Notes under the pieces: generated by a model
Told to the model about the DNA's origin: nothing
Database searches by the model: none
What the model saw: the letters and a program-made list of their open reading frames with translations, nothing else
Assembly (NCBI GenBank): GCA_031274595.1
Contig: JAISPX010000173.1
Coordinates: 1-42,534, forward strand
Origin: Prevotellaceae bacterium
GTDB taxonomy: Bacteria; Bacteroidota; Bacteroidia; Bacteroidales; UBA932
Length of the DNA stretch: 42,534 bases
Reading direction: 5' to 3'
Part shown: piece after piece, positions 15,115 through 34,241 of the stretch
How the letters are laid out: the number at the start of each line of letters is the position of its first letter
Position numbering within the stretch: the first letter of the stretch is position 1
Translations under genes and position numbers: made by a program

Positions 15115-15780
15115 TCACGCTATTACTGCGCTGATAATAGATTCGCTCCATGGACCTGGCAGGTTGCGGGTGTTCATCCAGCGGAAGCGGTAGTAAACGG
15201 TTTTGCCAACATCTTCCAGTGGATAATCAATCACCATAGGCGAACGGCTTGAAAAGCCTGCATAAGACCAGTCATTGTCGGTTGCGGGCGGGTCGCCGCC
15301 TATCTTGTGCCATGCTTCAAAGCCTTTGGCATGCTCGGGCTTGGTTTTGCCTGTAAGTTTGCCCGCTTTCACGCGCAACGTGTGCCGCTGATGCACCGAA
15401 AAGTCAACTTCGCCTACGGGCATATCCGTAATTGGCGGCGCAGGAGTGGGCTTGGTGTCATGCACAGGAAGCCCCATGTGCCGGCGGTCTTCGTCGGTAA
15501 CAGCCGAGTTATAAGTCAAATGTTCCTTCACAAATTGCCTCACCGCATGTTTGAGCGTATCGCGCGATTCGTTTTTTGCAATCACATCGGCTCTGCCGCG
15601 GTTTGGGTCTTCTGATTTAGCATACGCCGTATCGTAAGCGACGATAAGAGTTTCAACCAATGCAACTTCATTGGGACTAATGTTCCATGCGCTTGCATGA
15701 GCGCTAACGTAGGTAAAAAGAATTTTCACCCATTCCAAAAATTTCCCGTCTGATTTGGGGATGTAATCTTGTTTTGGCAT
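15115..15780 (-). CDS. Conserved-type hypothetical protein with Fn3-like C-terminus
   Basis: A 221-aa protein without a signal peptide. The N-terminal half (to about residue 120) is helical, starting MPKQDYIPKSDGKFLEWVK, with the basic stretch AKNESRDTLKHAVRQFVKEHL. A proline-rich linker (PTPAPP, about 130) follows. The C-terminal half looks like a small beta sandwich with GKTVYYRFRWMNTRNLPGPWSE, reminiscent of fibronectin type III edge strands. I recognise the general architecture from hypothetical proteins in Bacteroidetes, but no function is known to me. It has richer GC than its surroundings and sits in repeat-laden DNA downstream of an inverted-repeat promoter cassette, which could control it together with the heptad-repeat ORF. 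The start is chosen at 15780 because the family-like MPKQDYIP start follows a clear gap. Confidence 0.75.
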   Translation of the reverse strand: MPKQDYIPKSDGKFLEWVKILFTYVSAHASAWNISPNEVALVETLIVAYDTAYAKSEDPNRGRADVIAKNESRDTLKHAVRQFVKEHLTYNSAVTDEDRRHMGLPVHDTKPTPAPPITDMPVGEVDFSVHQRHTLRVKAGKLTGKTKPEHAKGFEAWHKIGGDPPATDNDWSYAGFSSRSPMVIDYPLEDVGKTVYYRFRWMNTRNLPGPWSESIISAVIA

Positions 15781-16337
15781 CTTTTTTTGTTTTTAAATTT
15801 ATTACACAATATGTTTAGAAAGAATAATCCATACTTGCAGAAAGTACCAGTCAACCAGACTTTGAGTGGAGTCAACCAGACCTTGGGTGGAGTCAACCAA
15901 ACCTTGAGTGGAGTCAACCAAACCTTGGGTGGAGTCAACCAAACCTTGAGTGGAGTCAACCAGACTTTGGGTGGAGTCAACCAAACCTTGGGTGGAGTCA
16001 ACCAAACCTTGAGTGGAGTCAACCAAACCTTGGGTGGAGTCAACCAGACTTTGGGTGGAGTCAACCAAACCTTGGGTGGAGCCAACCAAACCTTGGGTGG
16101 AGTCAACCAAACCTTGCGGATATTACTGTAAATATTAAATACTTTCTGTGAAAATTTAGATGTCAAAAACAATAGATTGGGCGCTAAGCCGCCAAAACCG
16201 GACAAATTTTCTAATTCATTAAGAAACATCTGTTGATTTGAGTTAAGGCAGGTTATTTCCTGCGCAAGCCTTGTTTGTGCCGACACAAAGCCCACAGGTA
16301 AAAACGTTCTAAACTCAACAACAACAAGGTTTTTCAT
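15726..16337 (-). CDS. Putative heptad-repeat ORF of unknown function
   Basis: An open frame of 203 aa. About 70 non-repeated residues begin MKNLVVVEFRTFLPVGF. About 13 copies of the heptapeptide KVWLTPP or KVWLTPL follow, then a basic tail. The repeats come from a 21-bp minisatellite, which keeps every frame open, so the long frame is weak evidence for translation. Its last 55 bp overlap the start of the 221-aa gene. Base changes among units are silent at two variable sites in this frame but change Pro to Leu at a third. The start codon lies 28 bp from the inner gene-facing arm of an inverted-repeat promoter cassette, in the same arrangement as SusC at 34044, which supports a real transcription unit. 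No homology is recognised. Confidence 0.4.
   Translation of the reverse strand: MKNLVVVEFRTFLPVGFVSAQTRLAQEITCLNSNQQMFLNELENLSGFGGLAPNLLFLTSKFSQKVFNIYSNIRKVWLTPPKVWLAPPKVWLTPPKVWLTPPKVWLTPLKVWLTPPKVWLTPPKVWLTPLKVWLTPPKVWLTPLKVWLTPPKVWLTPLKVWLTGTFCKYGLFFLNILCNKFKNKKRCQNKITSPNQTGNFWNG
15850..16120. repeat. 21-bp tandem repeat (minisatellite), 12 full copies plus a partial
   Basis: The plus-strand unit is GTCAACCAAACCTTGGGTGG plus A. Twelve consecutive units cover 15850-16101, followed by a degenerate 19-bp thirteenth unit. Units vary at only a few positions: CAA/CAG, ACC/ACT, GGT/AGT and one GTC/GCC. Because 21 is a multiple of three, the reading VNQTLGG (plus), KVWLTPP and STQGLVD (minus) are all uninterrupted across the array. 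There are no spacers, so it is not a CRISPR array. High unit identity suggests recent expansion and likely copy-number variation. Confidence 0.95.
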
Positions 16338-16365: not shown

Positions 16366-16392
16366 TTTGTCCCATAATTTACATTATGTTAA
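16366..16392 (+). repeat. Inverted-repeat arm, Xer/dif-like, left arm of cassette A
   Basis: A 27-bp arm whose exact reverse complement is at 16498-16524. It can be parsed as an 11-bp half-site TTGTCCCATAA, a 6-bp centre TTTACA and an 11-bp half-site TTATGTTAAGT. Compared with E. coli dif as I remember it, the XerD-type half matches 10 of 11 bases and the whole site about 20 of 28. Function as a recombination site is an inference. Confidence 0.7.
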
Positions 16393-16497
16393 GTTTTAAA
16401 TACTGCAATATCAGCAAGATAAGCATTTTGGCACGCAAAAAATTGAAAAGTTAAAATTTGCAACTTATTGGAAATTAGATTAACTTTGCGCCGAAAG
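16393..16497 (+). promoter_or_regulatory. Putative invertible promoter segment A (pointing away from the heptad-repeat ORF)
   Basis: This 105-bp segment lies exactly between two perfect inverted arms. It holds a full Bacteroidetes promoter on the plus strand: TTTG at 16457-16460, 20 bp, then TAACTTTG at 16481-16488, with initiation expected near 16495. Facing right, it leads into 500 bp without a plus-strand gene. If inverted, it would fire left across the left arm into the ORF starting at 16337 and the 221-aa gene. Its sequence is shared at both ends with segments near 25430 and 34150, but its middle is not. Promoter identity is strong; invertibility is inferred from architecture. Confidence 0.6.
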
Positions 16498-16524
16498 TTA
16501 ACATAATGTAAATTATGGGACAAA
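16498..16524 (-). repeat. Inverted-repeat arm, Xer/dif-like, right arm of cassette A
   Basis: The exact reverse complement of 16366-16392, 27 of 27 bases. The outer flank (about 16525-16547, ending AAAGTGTTAAAAT) is shared with the other two cassettes, while the outer flank of the left arm is not. The right side is therefore a constant anchor distal to the controlled gene. Confidence 0.7.
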
Positions 16525-17023
16525 ATTTTTTTTGAAAGTGTTAAAATTTTACAAATTCGAGTAAAATTGACAAAAAAATGGGTAATAATTATTGGTTACT
16601 GATAAATGGTAATGGATTGCTTCACCTTACAGGTTCGCAGTAACAATCTTGAAGAAATGAAAAATGAAGAATTAAGAGTGAAAATGGTTAATAATAAATC
16701 GTAAATGATAAAATGGTTAATGATAAATCACTTTCAACTTTATAAACTTTATAACTAAAAAATATCCCGTCAGGGATTAAAGTTCGGTAGAAAATAAGGA
16801 TAAAAGCATGTTGCGCACGGAGCATAGTCAGTTTTTCATGGAACGGACAGCAACCCGTGCGCCGTGTATTGGCGTTGTGTTTTTCTACCGACCTTTCATG
16901 CCTACGGCATGTGACACATGCTTAAATGAAGAATGAAAAATAATAGTAAATCGTAAATAATAAGATAGTAAATAGTCAAATTGCATGCTTTCATTCGTTT
17001 CTTAACGAGCGGAAATGAACGTC
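16525..17023. other. Intergenic region without a plus-strand gene
   Basis: About 500 bp between cassette A and the cytidylate-kinase-like gene (3' end at 17024). It contains many degenerate ATGGTTAATAATAAATCG-like tracts, a 25-bp fragment (16732-16756) related to 209-233, and a structured GC-rich block at 16764-16911. No protein-coding gene is supported. A transcript from the cassette A promoter would run through it. Confidence 0.55.
16764..16911. repeat. GC-rich nested inverted-repeat element
   Basis: ATCCC-GTCA-GGGAT lies at 16764-16777. CGGTAGAAAA at 16785-16794 is the exact reverse complement of TTTTCTACCG at 16881-16890. Inside that pair, GCGCACGG is complementary to CCGTGCGC. CATGCC-TAC-GGCATG lies at 16897-16911. 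Together they would fold into a long stem-loop of about 105 nt flanked by two small hairpins. The composition contrasts with the AT-rich surroundings. It resembles a dispersed structured intergenic element, and its function is unknown. Confidence 0.5.
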
Positions 17024-24695: not shown

Positions 24696-25400
24696 TTAAT
24701 TATTTACTATTGTTCCGATTTTTTCGCCGTTTATTATTTTGGCAAGATTTCCTTTCCCGTTAATATCGAATACAATTATCGGCAAATTATTTTCCCTGCA
24801 AAGGGTAAATGCGGTTAAATCCATTACTTTAAGATTTTTGGCGTATGCTTCGCCGAATGTAATCGTATCGAATTTTATTGCCGATTTGTCAATTTCAGGG
24901 TCGGCTGAATAAATTCCGTTTACTCGTGTTCCTTTAATCAAAACATCGCATTTGGTTTCTATTGCGCGTAGCGCCGCTGCCGAATCGGTAGTGAAAAACG
25001 GATTGCCTGTGCCGCCTGCAATTATAACTACATATCCGTTGTTCATGTATTCAATGGCTTTGTGGTGCGAATAATATTCTCCTATTGGTTCCATGCAAAT
25101 TGATGTAAGCGTTTTTGTTTTTTGCCCGATTGATATTAACGCAGATTGGATTGCAATGCTGTTGATTACTGTTGCCAACATTCCCATTTGGTCGCCTTTT
25201 ACACGGTCAAAACCGCGCTGCTGTCCGCTTAATCCGCGAAAAATATTTCCGCCGCCGACAACAACGGCAATTTGCGTTTTATTTTGTGCTGCAATTTTTA
25301 TATCTTCGGCATATCGCAAAAGATTACTTTCGTTAATGCTGCATTTATCGGAGCCTTGCAAGGCTTCGCCGCTAAGTTTCAACAATATCCTTTTATACAT
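24696..25400 (-). CDS. pyrH: UMP kinase
   Basis: A 234-aa amino-acid-kinase-fold enzyme that phosphorylates UMP to UDP. Motifs are KRILLKLSGEALQG (ATP site), IAVVVGGGNIFRGL, the UMP-binding GDQMGMLATVINSIAIQSAL, IIAGGTGNPFFTTDSAAALRA, and LKVMDLTAFTLCRENNLPIIVFDINGKGNL. The length and order fit bacterial PyrH. It is transcribed from a perfect TTTG-N20-TAACTTTG promoter directly upstream. That promoter is identical in layout to the ones inside the two inverted-repeat cassettes, but here it faces the gene. Confidence 0.98.
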   Translation of the reverse strand: MYKRILLKLSGEALQGSDKCSINESNLLRYAEDIKIAAQNKTQIAVVVGGGNIFRGLSGQQRGFDRVKGDQMGMLATVINSIAIQSALISIGQKTKTLTSICMEPIGEYYSHHKAIEYMNNGYVVIIAGGTGNPFFTTDSAAALRAIETKCDVLIKGTRVNGIYSADPEIDKSAIKFDTITFGEAYAKNLKVMDLTAFTLCRENNLPIIVFDINGKGNLAKIINGEKIGTIVNN

Positions 25401-25425: not shown

Positions 25426-25457
25426 CAAAGTTAATCTATTTTTCAATAAGTTGCAAA
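25426..25457 (-). promoter_or_regulatory. Promoter of pyrH-frr (cassette C, gene-facing orientation)
   Basis: On the minus strand, TTTG (25454-25457), 20 bp and TAACTTTG (25426-25433) give a perfect consensus promoter. Initiation near 25420 leaves a leader of about 20 nt. The 20-bp spacer differs from those of cassettes A and B by one or two bases. The distance from the -7 box to the upstream Xer-like arm is 88 bp, the same as in cassettes A and B. The gene-proximal arm is absent, so the promoter would be fixed. Confidence 0.8.
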
Positions 25458-25521
25458 TTTTATCTTTTCAATTTTTTATGCTCTAAAATCGTTATTCCGT
25501 TGATGAACTCGTATTTAAAAC

Positions 25522-25547
25522 TTAACATAATGTAAATTATGGGACAA
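25522..25547 (-). repeat. Solo Xer/dif-like arm upstream of the pyrH promoter
   Basis: The arm is identical to the distal arms at 16498 and 34212 across TTAACATAATG, TAAATTATGG and GACAA. Its inner neighbour GTATTTAAAAC is the reverse complement of the inner neighbour of the left arms of A and B, exactly as expected for the inverted state of the cassette. Its outer flank matches the outer flank of their right arms. No partner arm lies next to the pyrH start codon. Confidence 0.7.
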
Positions 25548-30717: not shown

Positions 30718-33700
30718 TTATAATCCTAATTTTAATGTCATTGTAATTTGTTTTGGTATAGGCAGAGCAACGCCTCCCGAACCAAAAAATTCAGGGTCTT
30801 GTCCGTTAAGTTTTGAGTCGGCATACAGTAAACACAGGTTTGTAACCTGAATTTTGGCTGTAAGGTTTTTAAATCCTAATGGAGAAACCCAGTTTGAAGG
30901 AAAATCATAAGATAATGATATTTCTTTAAGACGTATGAAACCGCCATCGGCTACGCGCGCATCCGAATAATTGTACGCATTGTAAGCATAAGTTAAATGA
31001 GATATATCTCTATACTGGCGATAAGTTGGGATTACGGGGATATTGGTATAAGCCTCATCTCCAGGCAACACCCAGCGGTTTGCAAATTCTTTGGGCATTG
31101 AGCGTACATCCGAATATGCTACTCTAAATCTTGGGTCAAGTCGAATTTTATTGCCAAACGAATAGGTAATAAATATGTTCAATCTGAAATTTTTGTAGTT
31201 GAACAAATTACCCAAAGAGCCGAAGTGAGTAGGCTCTGTTGGTCCCTCGTATTTCAAGAATTTTATTTTATCAGGATCTCTTTCCTGAAAATTAATTTCG
31301 GCAACTGTTATATCCCCATTTTCGTTAAGGAAGGTAGGAAGTCCATCTTCATTCAGACCCATGAAAGGTATGGAAAATAAACCTCTGTACGGATAACCCT
31401 GAATACCGAAACCGTTTCCTGTAATAAGATCTATAACTCTTTTTGTTGTATATAGTTCGGTTATTTCGGTTCTGCTGTAAGAAAAAATAAGACTTGTTGT
31501 CCATTTAAAATCTTTTGTATTGATATTTTTTGTTGAAAGAGAAAATTCAATACCTCTTGATTTCATTGTCGCCACATTTGCGTACTTGTCCACATCTCCA
31601 CCAACGCCTGTTGTTGCAATGGGTCCAATAAGGTCAAAATTGCTGCGCCAGTACCAGTCGGTGCCAAAACTTATTCTGTTGTTCAAAAATCCAAGGTCAA
31701 GCCCAACATTCAACTCATGTTTTTTTTCGTAGGTAAGTTGACTGTTTTCCAAATCGGATATTACCAAAGCCGTTTCCTTGCTGCCTTCGCTGGGTCTCCA
31801 CGGACGCGAACTGTTTATAACAATCTGCGAATTTGTAACAAAACGCGGGCCTCTGTCGGCTGTCAAACTGTATGATGCTTTCACGGCAGCATGCGATAAC
31901 ACGGATTCGAGTTTTTCAAAGAATGTTTCACGATAAATATTCCACAAGCCCGCTATGTTCCATGTGGGCAACCAACGCGCCGAGCGCGCTTTTCCCAATT
32001 TATTTGAGCCTTCGTAACGAAATGTTCCGTTTATTGTATATTTTGTTTTGTACGAATATGTAGCCAAAGCAAAAAATGCAATATTGCGAGACCTTGATAT
32101 TCCATTGGTAAAATAGTCGGTATTTTCTTCAACTCCTTTTTTAAATACTTGGTAAGCATAATTTGGAACATCTCCCATCGAATATTGCCGTCCCCAACCT
32201 CTGAACCACGAGTTATCGCGGTCAACAGAATTTATTTCCATACCGCCGAAGAAATTGGTAATATGAATATCGTTGAATGTTTTGTTCCATGTAAGCGTTG
32301 TACGCAAGTCGTATCCCAGCATTTTATTGTCGGCGCGATTGTATATACCTCCGTTTGGCAATACCGTAATGGGAAGAGCATAAGGTATATCAGGGTCGGT
32401 GTAAAGGAACGGATTTTCATCTCTTATAACAGCATCCGGCATGGCTCTGTAAGCCAAAGCCTGATTTGCATAATCTTTAATATTATGTTCTACCGAAGTT
32501 GCCGAATGTTTAATAGCGCCCAAAAGAGCCAATTCCAAATTTTTCATCGGTTTCCACTTCAATTCTCCTTGAAATTTCAAATCGGTTACGTTTATATCCA
32601 TGTAATTATTGTCTAATTCGTGATTAATATTGAACTCGGCATAATTACGCGTATAATATTCGTTAGGACTCATTGTGCGCGATGTGTTTAGCGCATAACT
32701 GTAAGGATTTATGTCAAAATCGCGTTTTACTTCACCATATACTGCATCAATGTCCTGACTTAATGTACCCGGAGCTGTTTGTTTACGATACGAGGCGTTG
32801 GAAATCAGGTTCAGCGACAAATTTTTATATATGTTAAAAGTAACATTGGTGTTTGCCGTATAACGATTTACCGAACTTGCTTTTGTCCATCCCGGATCAA
32901 TCAATGCGCTTATAGAAGCATAATAAGTTGTTTTATCCGTACCTCCCGACATGCTTACAGAATGTGATTGCATTATACTTGGTTTAAACAGTTCGTTAAA
33001 CCAATCGGTGTTTCGCATTTCGGCTTGGCGCAGATAAGCGTTTCTGGCTTCTTCGGTATTTGATAAGGCAAATGTTCCTGTTACAGGATTGTAAGTGTTT
33101 ATCAGCTGATACATTTTACCGTAAACTCCGCTTTCTCTGTCTCTCAATGTTGAAGAAAGATTTAGCCAGCCTTTTTGTTGCATTTCCTGATAAACTCCCA
33201 TTTGTTCCTGAGAATTCATAATATTAAAATCGGCATAACGCGGCACCATGCGTATGGTATATTCTCCGTTGTAGTTAATACTGCTTGCGCCCGATTTACC
33301 TTTTTTTGTTGTAACAACAATAACTCCCGCCATAGCTCGCGCTCCATAAATAGAAGTTGCCGAGCCGTCTTTTAGAATTTCAAAACTTTCAATATCATCG
33401 GCGTTAAGTCCTGCAATAGCCGAACTTATCAACGTTTCGGCATCACCCGATGAAAGTCCGTCAGAATCGACTTCAATTACATCTTCCATTACAATTCCAT
33501 CAACAACCCACAAGGGTTTTGAACTTCCGTAAATAGAAGTTGCTCCGCGCACTCTGATTTTTGGTGCTGTTCCAAAAGTCCCGGAAACGTTTTGTACCGA
33601 AACACCGGCAGAACGTCCTTCCAATCCGCGACTTATATCCGCAAGTCCGTTTAGTTTTGCCGTTTCCGCAGATATATGGTCAGAAGCGCCGGTAAACAGC

Positions 33701-34044
33701 CGTTTGTCCATTTTTGTCATACCTGTTACTACAGCTTCTTCCAAAACAGTTGTGGAAGACTTCATGCGTACATTTATCTCCTTTTTTCCGTTTATTGCCA
33801 CTTCTATTGTTTCATAGCCGATAAACGAAAAAACTAATACTCCCGTAGCGGGAGCGGTTATTGAAAATGAGCCGTTATTGTTTGTCGTTGAACTTGTCGT
33901 AGTTCCTTTTACAATAACCGACACATAGGATAAAGCTTCGCCTGTTGCATCATCAATTACAAGTCCTGTAATCTTATCTTGCGAATAGGCTGTGCAAATC
34001 CCAATCACCATACAAATAACTAATAATAGTAAGTTCCTTTTCAT
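30718..34044 (-). CDS. SusC/RagA-family TonB-dependent transporter (second pair)
   Basis: An 1108-aa outer-membrane transporter. It has a signal peptide to about residue 21 (CTAYS) and a carboxypeptidase-regulatory-like domain at about 24-95 (ITGLVIDDATGEALSYVSVIVKG, FSFIGYETI). A degenerate TonB-box region EEAVVTGM lies at 102-109, and the plug has IRVRGATSIYG, WVVDGIVMED and ILKDGSATSIYGARAMAGVIVVTT. It heads a five-gene operon. The start codon lies 33 bp from the gene-proximal arm of inverted-repeat cassette B, whose promoter currently points away. No other minus-strand TAnnTTTG box is evident between the gene and that cassette, so the operon appears to be OFF in this assembly. No regulator gene is adjacent. 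Confidence 0.96.
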   Translation of the reverse strand: MKRNLLLLVICMVIGICTAYSQDKITGLVIDDATGEALSYVSVIVKGTTTSSTTNNNGSFSITAPATGVLVFSFIGYETIEVAINGKKEINVRMKSSTTVLEEAVVTGMTKMDKRLFTGASDHISAETAKLNGLADISRGLEGRSAGVSVQNVSGTFGTAPKIRVRGATSIYGSSKPLWVVDGIVMEDVIEVDSDGLSSGDAETLISSAIAGLNADDIESFEILKDGSATSIYGARAMAGVIVVTTKKGKSGASSINYNGEYTIRMVPRYADFNIMNSQEQMGVYQEMQQKGWLNLSSTLRDRESGVYGKMYQLINTYNPVTGTFALSNTEEARNAYLRQAEMRNTDWFNELFKPSIMQSHSVSMSGGTDKTTYYASISALIDPGWTKASSVNRYTANTNVTFNIYKNLSLNLISNASYRKQTAPGTLSQDIDAVYGEVKRDFDINPYSYALNTSRTMSPNEYYTRNYAEFNINHELDNNYMDINVTDLKFQGELKWKPMKNLELALLGAIKHSATSVEHNIKDYANQALAYRAMPDAVIRDENPFLYTDPDIPYALPITVLPNGGIYNRADNKMLGYDLRTTLTWNKTFNDIHITNFFGGMEINSVDRDNSWFRGWGRQYSMGDVPNYAYQVFKKGVEENTDYFTNGISRSRNIAFFALATYSYKTKYTINGTFRYEGSNKLGKARSARWLPTWNIAGLWNIYRETFFEKLESVLSHAAVKASYSLTADRGPRFVTNSQIVINSSRPWRPSEGSKETALVISDLENSQLTYEKKHELNVGLDLGFLNNRISFGTDWYWRSNFDLIGPIATTGVGGDVDKYANVATMKSRGIEFSLSTKNINTKDFKWTTSLIFSYSRTEITELYTTKRVIDLITGNGFGIQGYPYRGLFSIPFMGLNEDGLPTFLNENGDITVAEINFQERDPDKIKFLKYEGPTEPTHFGSLGNLFNYKNFRLNIFITYSFGNKIRLDPRFRVAYSDVRSMPKEFANRWVLPGDEAYTNIPVIPTYRQYRDISHLTYAYNAYNYSDARVADGGFIRLKEISLSYDFPSNWVSPLGFKNLTAKIQVTNLCLLYADSKLNGQDPEFFGSGGVALPIPKQITMTLKLGL

Positions 34045-34076: not shown

Positions 34077-34106
34077 AATTTTGTCCCATAATTTACATTA
34101 TGTTAA
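34077..34106 (+). repeat. Inverted-repeat arm, Xer/dif-like, left (SusC-proximal) arm of cassette B
   Basis: A 30-bp arm, perfectly inverted at 34212-34241. It has the same half-sites and TTTACA centre as the arm at 16366. Its outer side is the SusC leader, which shows no clear similarity to the leader at cassette A. Confidence 0.72.
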
Positions 34107-34211
34107 GTTTTAAATACAAGGTAATCAGTGAAATGATGATTTTTGAGGGGCAAAAATCAAAAAGTTAAAATTTGCAACTTATTGAAAATTAGATTAACTT
34201 TGTCCCGAAAA
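34107..34211 (+). promoter_or_regulatory. Putative invertible promoter segment B (OFF orientation relative to SusC)
   Basis: A 105-bp segment, the same length as in cassette A, enclosed by perfect 30-bp inverted arms. It carries a plus-strand promoter TTTG (34171-34174), 20 bp, TAACTTTG (34195-34202), with initiation expected near 34209. This orientation drives transcription away from SusC and antisense into the wbqC 3' end. Inversion would place the same promoter facing SusC with a leader of roughly 60 nt. Invertible promoters controlling SusC/SusD genes are established in Bacteroides fragilis. Inversion at this site is inferred, not observed. Confidence 0.65.
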
Positions 34212-34241
34212 TTAACATAATGTAAATTATGGGACAAAATT
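34212..34241 (-). repeat. Inverted-repeat arm, Xer/dif-like, right (distal) arm of cassette B
   Basis: The reverse complement of 34077-34106, 30 of 30 bases. Its outer flank to about 34290 is shared in part with the flanks at 16525 and 25548, and a stretch of it recurs at 248-279. Confidence 0.72.

Follow-up and report, generated by a model that had tools for sequence, protein, structure and literature searches.

As a rule, phase variation depends on dedicated invertases, and the repeats of Mpi-type Bacteroidales invertons are recognised by enzymes of this kind. Mycoplasma phase variation of the Xer1 type resembles the cassettes described here in that a Xer-like tyrosine recombinase shuffles the promoters or genes of surface proteins, and differs from them in that it relies on a dedicated enzyme with its own sites and not on the dimer-resolution site. 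Bacteroidales invertons, such as the Mpi-controlled capsule promoters of Bacteroides fragilis, consist of short inverted repeats around a promoter, lie upstream of surface genes, occur in both orientations and number many per genome, a class described in PMC11892184, whose main text makes no mention of XerC, XerD or dif sites. The cassettes share these traits, but with dif copies as their repeats and XerCD, a pair of household recombinases, as the probable enzyme. Closer in the nature of the sites are the dif modules (pdif) of Acinetobacter plasmids, where XerCD inverts the DNA between dif-like sites of opposite orientation whose 6-bp spacers are identical, a single mismatch adjacent to the XerC half being tolerated (PMC13141974); those modules contain whole genes, whereas the cassettes are chromosomal segments of ∼100 bp that carry a promoter only, at a fixed distance from a start codon. 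Similarly, attP1/attP2 of CTX-type filamentous phages are two opposed dif-like sites ∼90 bp apart (PMC3089051), a pattern that we also found in short viral contigs. In the phage, however, the pair forms a single attachment site by the folding of single-stranded DNA, and its centres are imperfect and longer, while a cassette is chromosomal and has its promoter flanked by two full dif-like sites whose centres measure 6 bp. No published precedent for dif-based invertible promoters was found in the openly licensed literature.

The window, by which we mean the whole analysed stretch of 42,534 nucleotides, belongs to a Prevotellaceae MAG (G000) from a bacterium that we take to live in the termite gut, as do its four cassette-bearing congeners. 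In our reading, the cassette at 16366 to 16524 is an invertible promoter flanked by inverted copies of dif, the site at which the cell-division recombinases XerC and XerD normally resolve chromosome dimers, and it would be flipped by XerCD; both the catalysis by XerCD and the switching in living cells are what we infer, and we give this reading a probability of roughly 0.8. The cassette and the genes beside it are composed as follows.

16366 to 16392, plus strand: gene-side arm, dif-like, part of a perfect inverted repeat and matching the native dif candidate except in the centre; XerC half (TTG)TCCCATAA to 16377, centre TTTACA at 16378 to 16383, XerD half TTATGTTAA at 16384 to 16392.
16393 to 16497, plus strand: putative invertible segment of 105 bp, with its promoter directed away from the controlled gene (OFF).
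16457 to 16488, plus strand: promoter of the Bacteroidales type within that segment, TTTG-N20-TAACTTTG; an alignment of 51 spacers shows it conserved.
16498 to 16524, minus strand: far-side arm, the dif-like site inverted, part of the perfect inverted repeat; XerD half at 16498 to 16506, centre at 16507 to 16512, XerC half at 16513 to 16521 and beyond.
16538 to 16546, plus strand: far-side outer motif GTGTTAAAA, 16 bp past the 24-bp arm core.
15726 to 16337, minus strand: controlled ORF of 203 aa with heptad repeats ([KR]V-x5), starting 32 bp from the arm.
15115 to 15780, minus strand: ORF of 221 aa overlapping the end of the heptad ORF.

The preliminary description had reported perfect 27-bp inverted arms 105 bp apart around a promoter that faces away from the adjacent minus-strand ORF (start at 16337), and both statements hold: the arms are reverse complements at 27 of 27 positions, and the promoter lies on the plus strand. 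As assembled, the cassette is thus OFF for the heptad-repeat and 221-aa ORFs. We take TTTG-N20-TAACTTTG to be the −33/−7 promoter form of Bacteroidales; across the cassettes its general form is TTTG-N20-TAnnTTTG. The outer motif GTGTTAAAA is located on the side opposite the gene in nearly all cassettes. Separately, we observed that the native dif candidate (L062, L110, and L114) is flanked on its XerC side by the comparable TTGTTAAA, and the two may represent an accessory site. An ATCAG/ATCA motif is conserved in the spacers of all cassette-bearing species, ∼15 to 20 bp inside the promoter-distal arm (16410 to 16414 in the window).

The core of each arm is made up of the XerC half GTCCCATAA, the 6-bp centre TTTACA and the XerD half TTATGTTAA. 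Laid out as a dif/Xer site, with an 11-bp XerC half, a 6-bp centre and an 11-bp XerD half containing TTATGTTAA, the arm reads (TTG)TCCCATAA TTTACA TTATGTTAA(GT); for comparison, dif1 of V. cholerae reads AGTGCGTATTA TGTATG TTATGTTAAAT (PMC3089051). In the window, the 24-bp core GTCCCATAATTTACATTATGTTAA is matched five times, where 100 dinucleotide shuffles give an expectation of zero; in the whole MAG, with up to three mismatches allowed, it is matched 37 times, and a reversed-pattern control not once. Judged by their sequence, the cassette arms are dif sites, a point that the preliminary description did not recognise and that makes XerCD the likely invertase. Most genomes of the genus contain, in addition, one unpaired copy of the core at a conserved locus, which in nine of them adjoins a glutathione peroxidase gene and/or a hypothetical gene of ∼170 aa. 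Its centre is TTTATA in most genus genomes, TATATA in G000 and TCTATA in G002, and the same 24-mer with centre TTTATA occurs as a single copy in G029 and G035, which belong to other families. This unpaired copy is probably the native dif, for which it is the best candidate; GC skew around it displays no clear shift, on contigs that are short and fragmentary. We also considered an invertase gene as a neighbour of this copy and dropped the idea, since what adjoins it are the glutathione peroxidase and hypothetical genes. All cassette centres differ from the native dif candidate of their own genome, save for single mutated arms in L096 and L109 (TTTATA). XerCD recombination favours equal centres (PMC13141974), and the difference between the cassette centre TTTACA and that of native dif should therefore prevent recombination between cassettes and dif at the terminus. 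The centre would thereby insulate the switches from native dif.

The window contains two further cassettes, one of them degenerate.

34083 to 34235, no strand assigned: second cassette, with arms at 34083 to 34106 and 34212 to 34235 and a promoter at 34171 to 34202 on the plus strand.
25426 to 25545, minus strand: third, degenerate cassette, with a lone far-side arm at 25522 to 25545 and a promoter at 25426 to 25457.

The second cassette is OFF for the SusC-like gene at 30718 to 34044 (minus strand); it shares the 105-bp spacing of the first, and the two spacers are identical at 81 of 105 bases in register. The promoter of the degenerate cassette faces an amino-acid-kinase (pyrH-like) gene at 24696 to 25400, followed by frr, and the cassette is presumably a switch locked ON upstream of household genes. 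Genome-wide, the MAG carries ∼20 cassettes, of which we read 15 intact pairs and several incomplete ones. All 15 intact cassettes measure 129 bp from arm to arm (128 to 131 or 138 to 139 bp across the genus), and in every one a start codon lies 29 to 47 bp outside one arm, a placement expected by chance at ∼2% of window positions. Inverted repeats around a promoter close upstream of a gene are the make-up of an inverton. The targets in G000 are SusC-like TonB-dependent receptors (in the window and at L060, L065, L074, and L075), an MBOAT acyltransferase (L063), a DUF6377 protein (L072), small proteins and the heptad-repeat family with its 221-aa companion. Four congeneric genomes (G004, G008, G009, and G010) carry cassette sets of their own.

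Inversion is evident from two independent frames: an outer one, fixed by where the gene begins at one end and by GTGTTAAAA 15 to 20 bp past the arm at the other, and an inner one, given by the promoter. Scored against the outer frame, nine cassettes of the own genome have their promoter OFF and six ON, counted between paralogous cassettes, and the genus-wide ratio of 27 OFF to 21 ON likewise reflects a mix between paralogous cassettes and species and not within one locus. With this, the reading of a switch family, raised on the basis of two loci with identical geometry, has stood up in the constant placement and varying promoter orientation, and so have the two expectations on which it was to be tested, that such cassettes prefer to lie upstream of genes and that their orientation varies. 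The arms themselves retain a trace of both frames. Arm position 5, in the XerC half, tracks the outer frame, with T on the gene side in 15 cases and on the far side in one, and is split 8:8 with respect to the promoter; position 23, in the XerD half, tracks the promoter (11:0) and stands at 3:6 with respect to the outer frame. Since position 5 goes with the outer frame and position 23 with the promoter, strand exchange falls between positions 5 and ∼20. The crossover is thus confined to the dif centre or its immediate vicinity, the stretch that XerCD would cleave. Of 50 scored pairs, 47 have two arms with the same centre, among them a pair in which both read CTTACA. Furthermore, L129 (G004:C348) is bordered by two gene flanks and L125 (G004:C336) by two far flanks, their spacers being identical at 104 of 105 bases; the left flank of L129 matches the gene flank of L116 (G004:C23) at 99% over 206 bp, and the right flank of L125 matches the far flank of L116 at 98% over 149 bp. 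These two loci could be the products expected of recombination between two cassettes (a large inversion), although paralogy or misassembly could also generate them. Contig ends inside cassettes (C14, C44, C99, C141, and C146) were discarded as a sign of mixed orientation, as the shared repeat explains such breaks equally well.

Which recombinase would act on these sites? The host encodes both Xer enzymes: XerD (L131) scores 345.5 bits against an NCBIfam cut-off of 329.6, and XerC (L132) matches the XerC model best, at 304.7 bits, below the cut-off of 335. It is conceivable that a dedicated invertase, either Mpi-type serine or Xer-like tyrosine, merely happens to use dif-like repeats, given that G000 and G010 encode an Mpi-family serine invertase above cut-off and that a third, smaller Xer-like tyrosine recombinase of 267 aa (L133) is widespread, being present in most genus genomes. 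Searches found no serine recombinase in G009 or in G008, which is 93% complete and has many cassettes, so that the Mpi-family invertase is absent from two cassette-rich genomes and was rejected as a universal catalyst. The 267-aa protein, for its part, was not found in the cassette-rich G004 and G009 and occurs also in cassette-free genomes, with G001, G003, and G005 holding it beside a single dif-like copy or none. G009 has nine scored cassettes in both orientations, and XerC and XerD are the only tyrosine recombinases found in this genome, which is 77% complete and might encode others in its missing part. No arm lies near any recombinase gene among the G000 loci examined, and the arms contain both Xer half-sites of native dif, so that we regard a dedicated invertase as unlikely. 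Acting on the arms, XerCD would flip the 105-bp segment together with its promoter, while the XerC half-sites would stay with the outer flanks. Turned ON, the promoter would point toward the gene, and transcription would run through the arm and a leader of ∼30 bp into the ORF; turned OFF, which is the state assembled for the heptad and 221-aa genes, it would be aimed at the far flank.

Two further explanations dispense with inversion altogether. The ∼20 similar copies per genome, their related spacers and their diverse target genes would also suit a mobile repeat, MITE-like or otherwise, that is bounded by terminal inverted repeats, has an outward promoter and inserted upstream of genes. Such an element inserts its inner and outer parts as a unit, duplicating the target, and should exhibit a single inner/outer register, whereas here the outer frame (gene, GTGTTAAAA, and position 5) is fixed and the inner segment is found both ways, independently of it. 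The start codon, moreover, is 29 to 47 bp away every time, and no linked transposase was seen at the cassettes, all of which makes a mobile repeat very improbable. Even harder to credit is a fixed regulatory region in which the arms are two operators for a DNA-looping dimeric regulator, without recombination. The motif CATAAT-N4-ATTATG is indeed palindromic in itself, and the spacing is constant, with the G008 variants approximately one helical turn longer, as looping would have it; an operator pair, however, leaves unexplained why promoters face away from the gene in more than half of the cassettes, why arm positions 5 and 23 behave independently and why the arms match dif, including both Xer half-sites.

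Beyond the genus, a search of 393 Bacteroidales for the exact pattern, with TTATGTTAA in both arms, returned the own genome only, and a strict pattern applied to 84,980 species genomes (GTDB) matched only congeneric MAGs, Lentisphaerae MAGs and two Mollicutes/Bacilli contigs. A looser pattern matched 11 of 387 Verrucomicrobiota genomes; among the matches listed, 34 of 35 pairs have equal centres, with ∼17 different hexamers, and the lone unequal pair differs at the XerC-adjacent base. The Lentisphaeria MAG RGIG4167 (G416, L239 to L257) contains ∼20 inverted dif pairs, several with a centre hexamer private to the pair. Its segment between the arms includes a ribosome-binding site and ATG, so that an inversion would turn the gene's start codon with it, is found in both orientations and leads through the arm into a prepilin-like gene (N_methyl/DUF1559 matches, with scores near cut-off). 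Pairs in G414 and G415 are located upstream of AIDA-like adhesins, and solitary sites have other centres (TATACG in G414 and TATATG in G416). On balance, we lean toward the view that XerCD/dif, an essential system, has become a genome-wide phase-variation device in bacteria of two phyla or more. In this view, the 6-bp centre would serve as an address that matches within a pair, is unlike that of native dif and, among Verrucomicrobiota, often varies from pair to pair, so that each switch would flip alone and leave the terminus untouched; via the XerCD activator, switching might be linked to the cell cycle.

If XerCD does drive the cassette promoters, a recombination system that is essential and nearly universal would have been recruited for surface diversity, with the central-hexamer address preventing clashes with dimer resolution, and multi-locus switching in cassette-rich genomes that have no recognised invertase would be explained. 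The reading also yields a search rule, to look for inverted dif pairs whose centres agree, which already gives matches in Verrucomicrobiota, and raises the question of how XerCD, whose action at dif ordinarily depends on FtsK at the terminus, would be activated away from the site where FtsK normally acts.

The genes beside the window cassette recur elsewhere in the MAG. The N-terminus of the heptad ORF (MKNLVVVEF-TFLPVGFVSAQ) is conserved and common to five other cassette-controlled loci, and the 221-aa ORF, which has no Pfam match, comes next in L068 and L070 as well. Tandem repeats of 21 bp encode heptads of differing sequence in the window (15802 to 16110) and in the paralogs L061, L068, L070, and L073, and it is tempting to speculate that the number of these repeats after the conserved N-terminus forms a second layer of variation.
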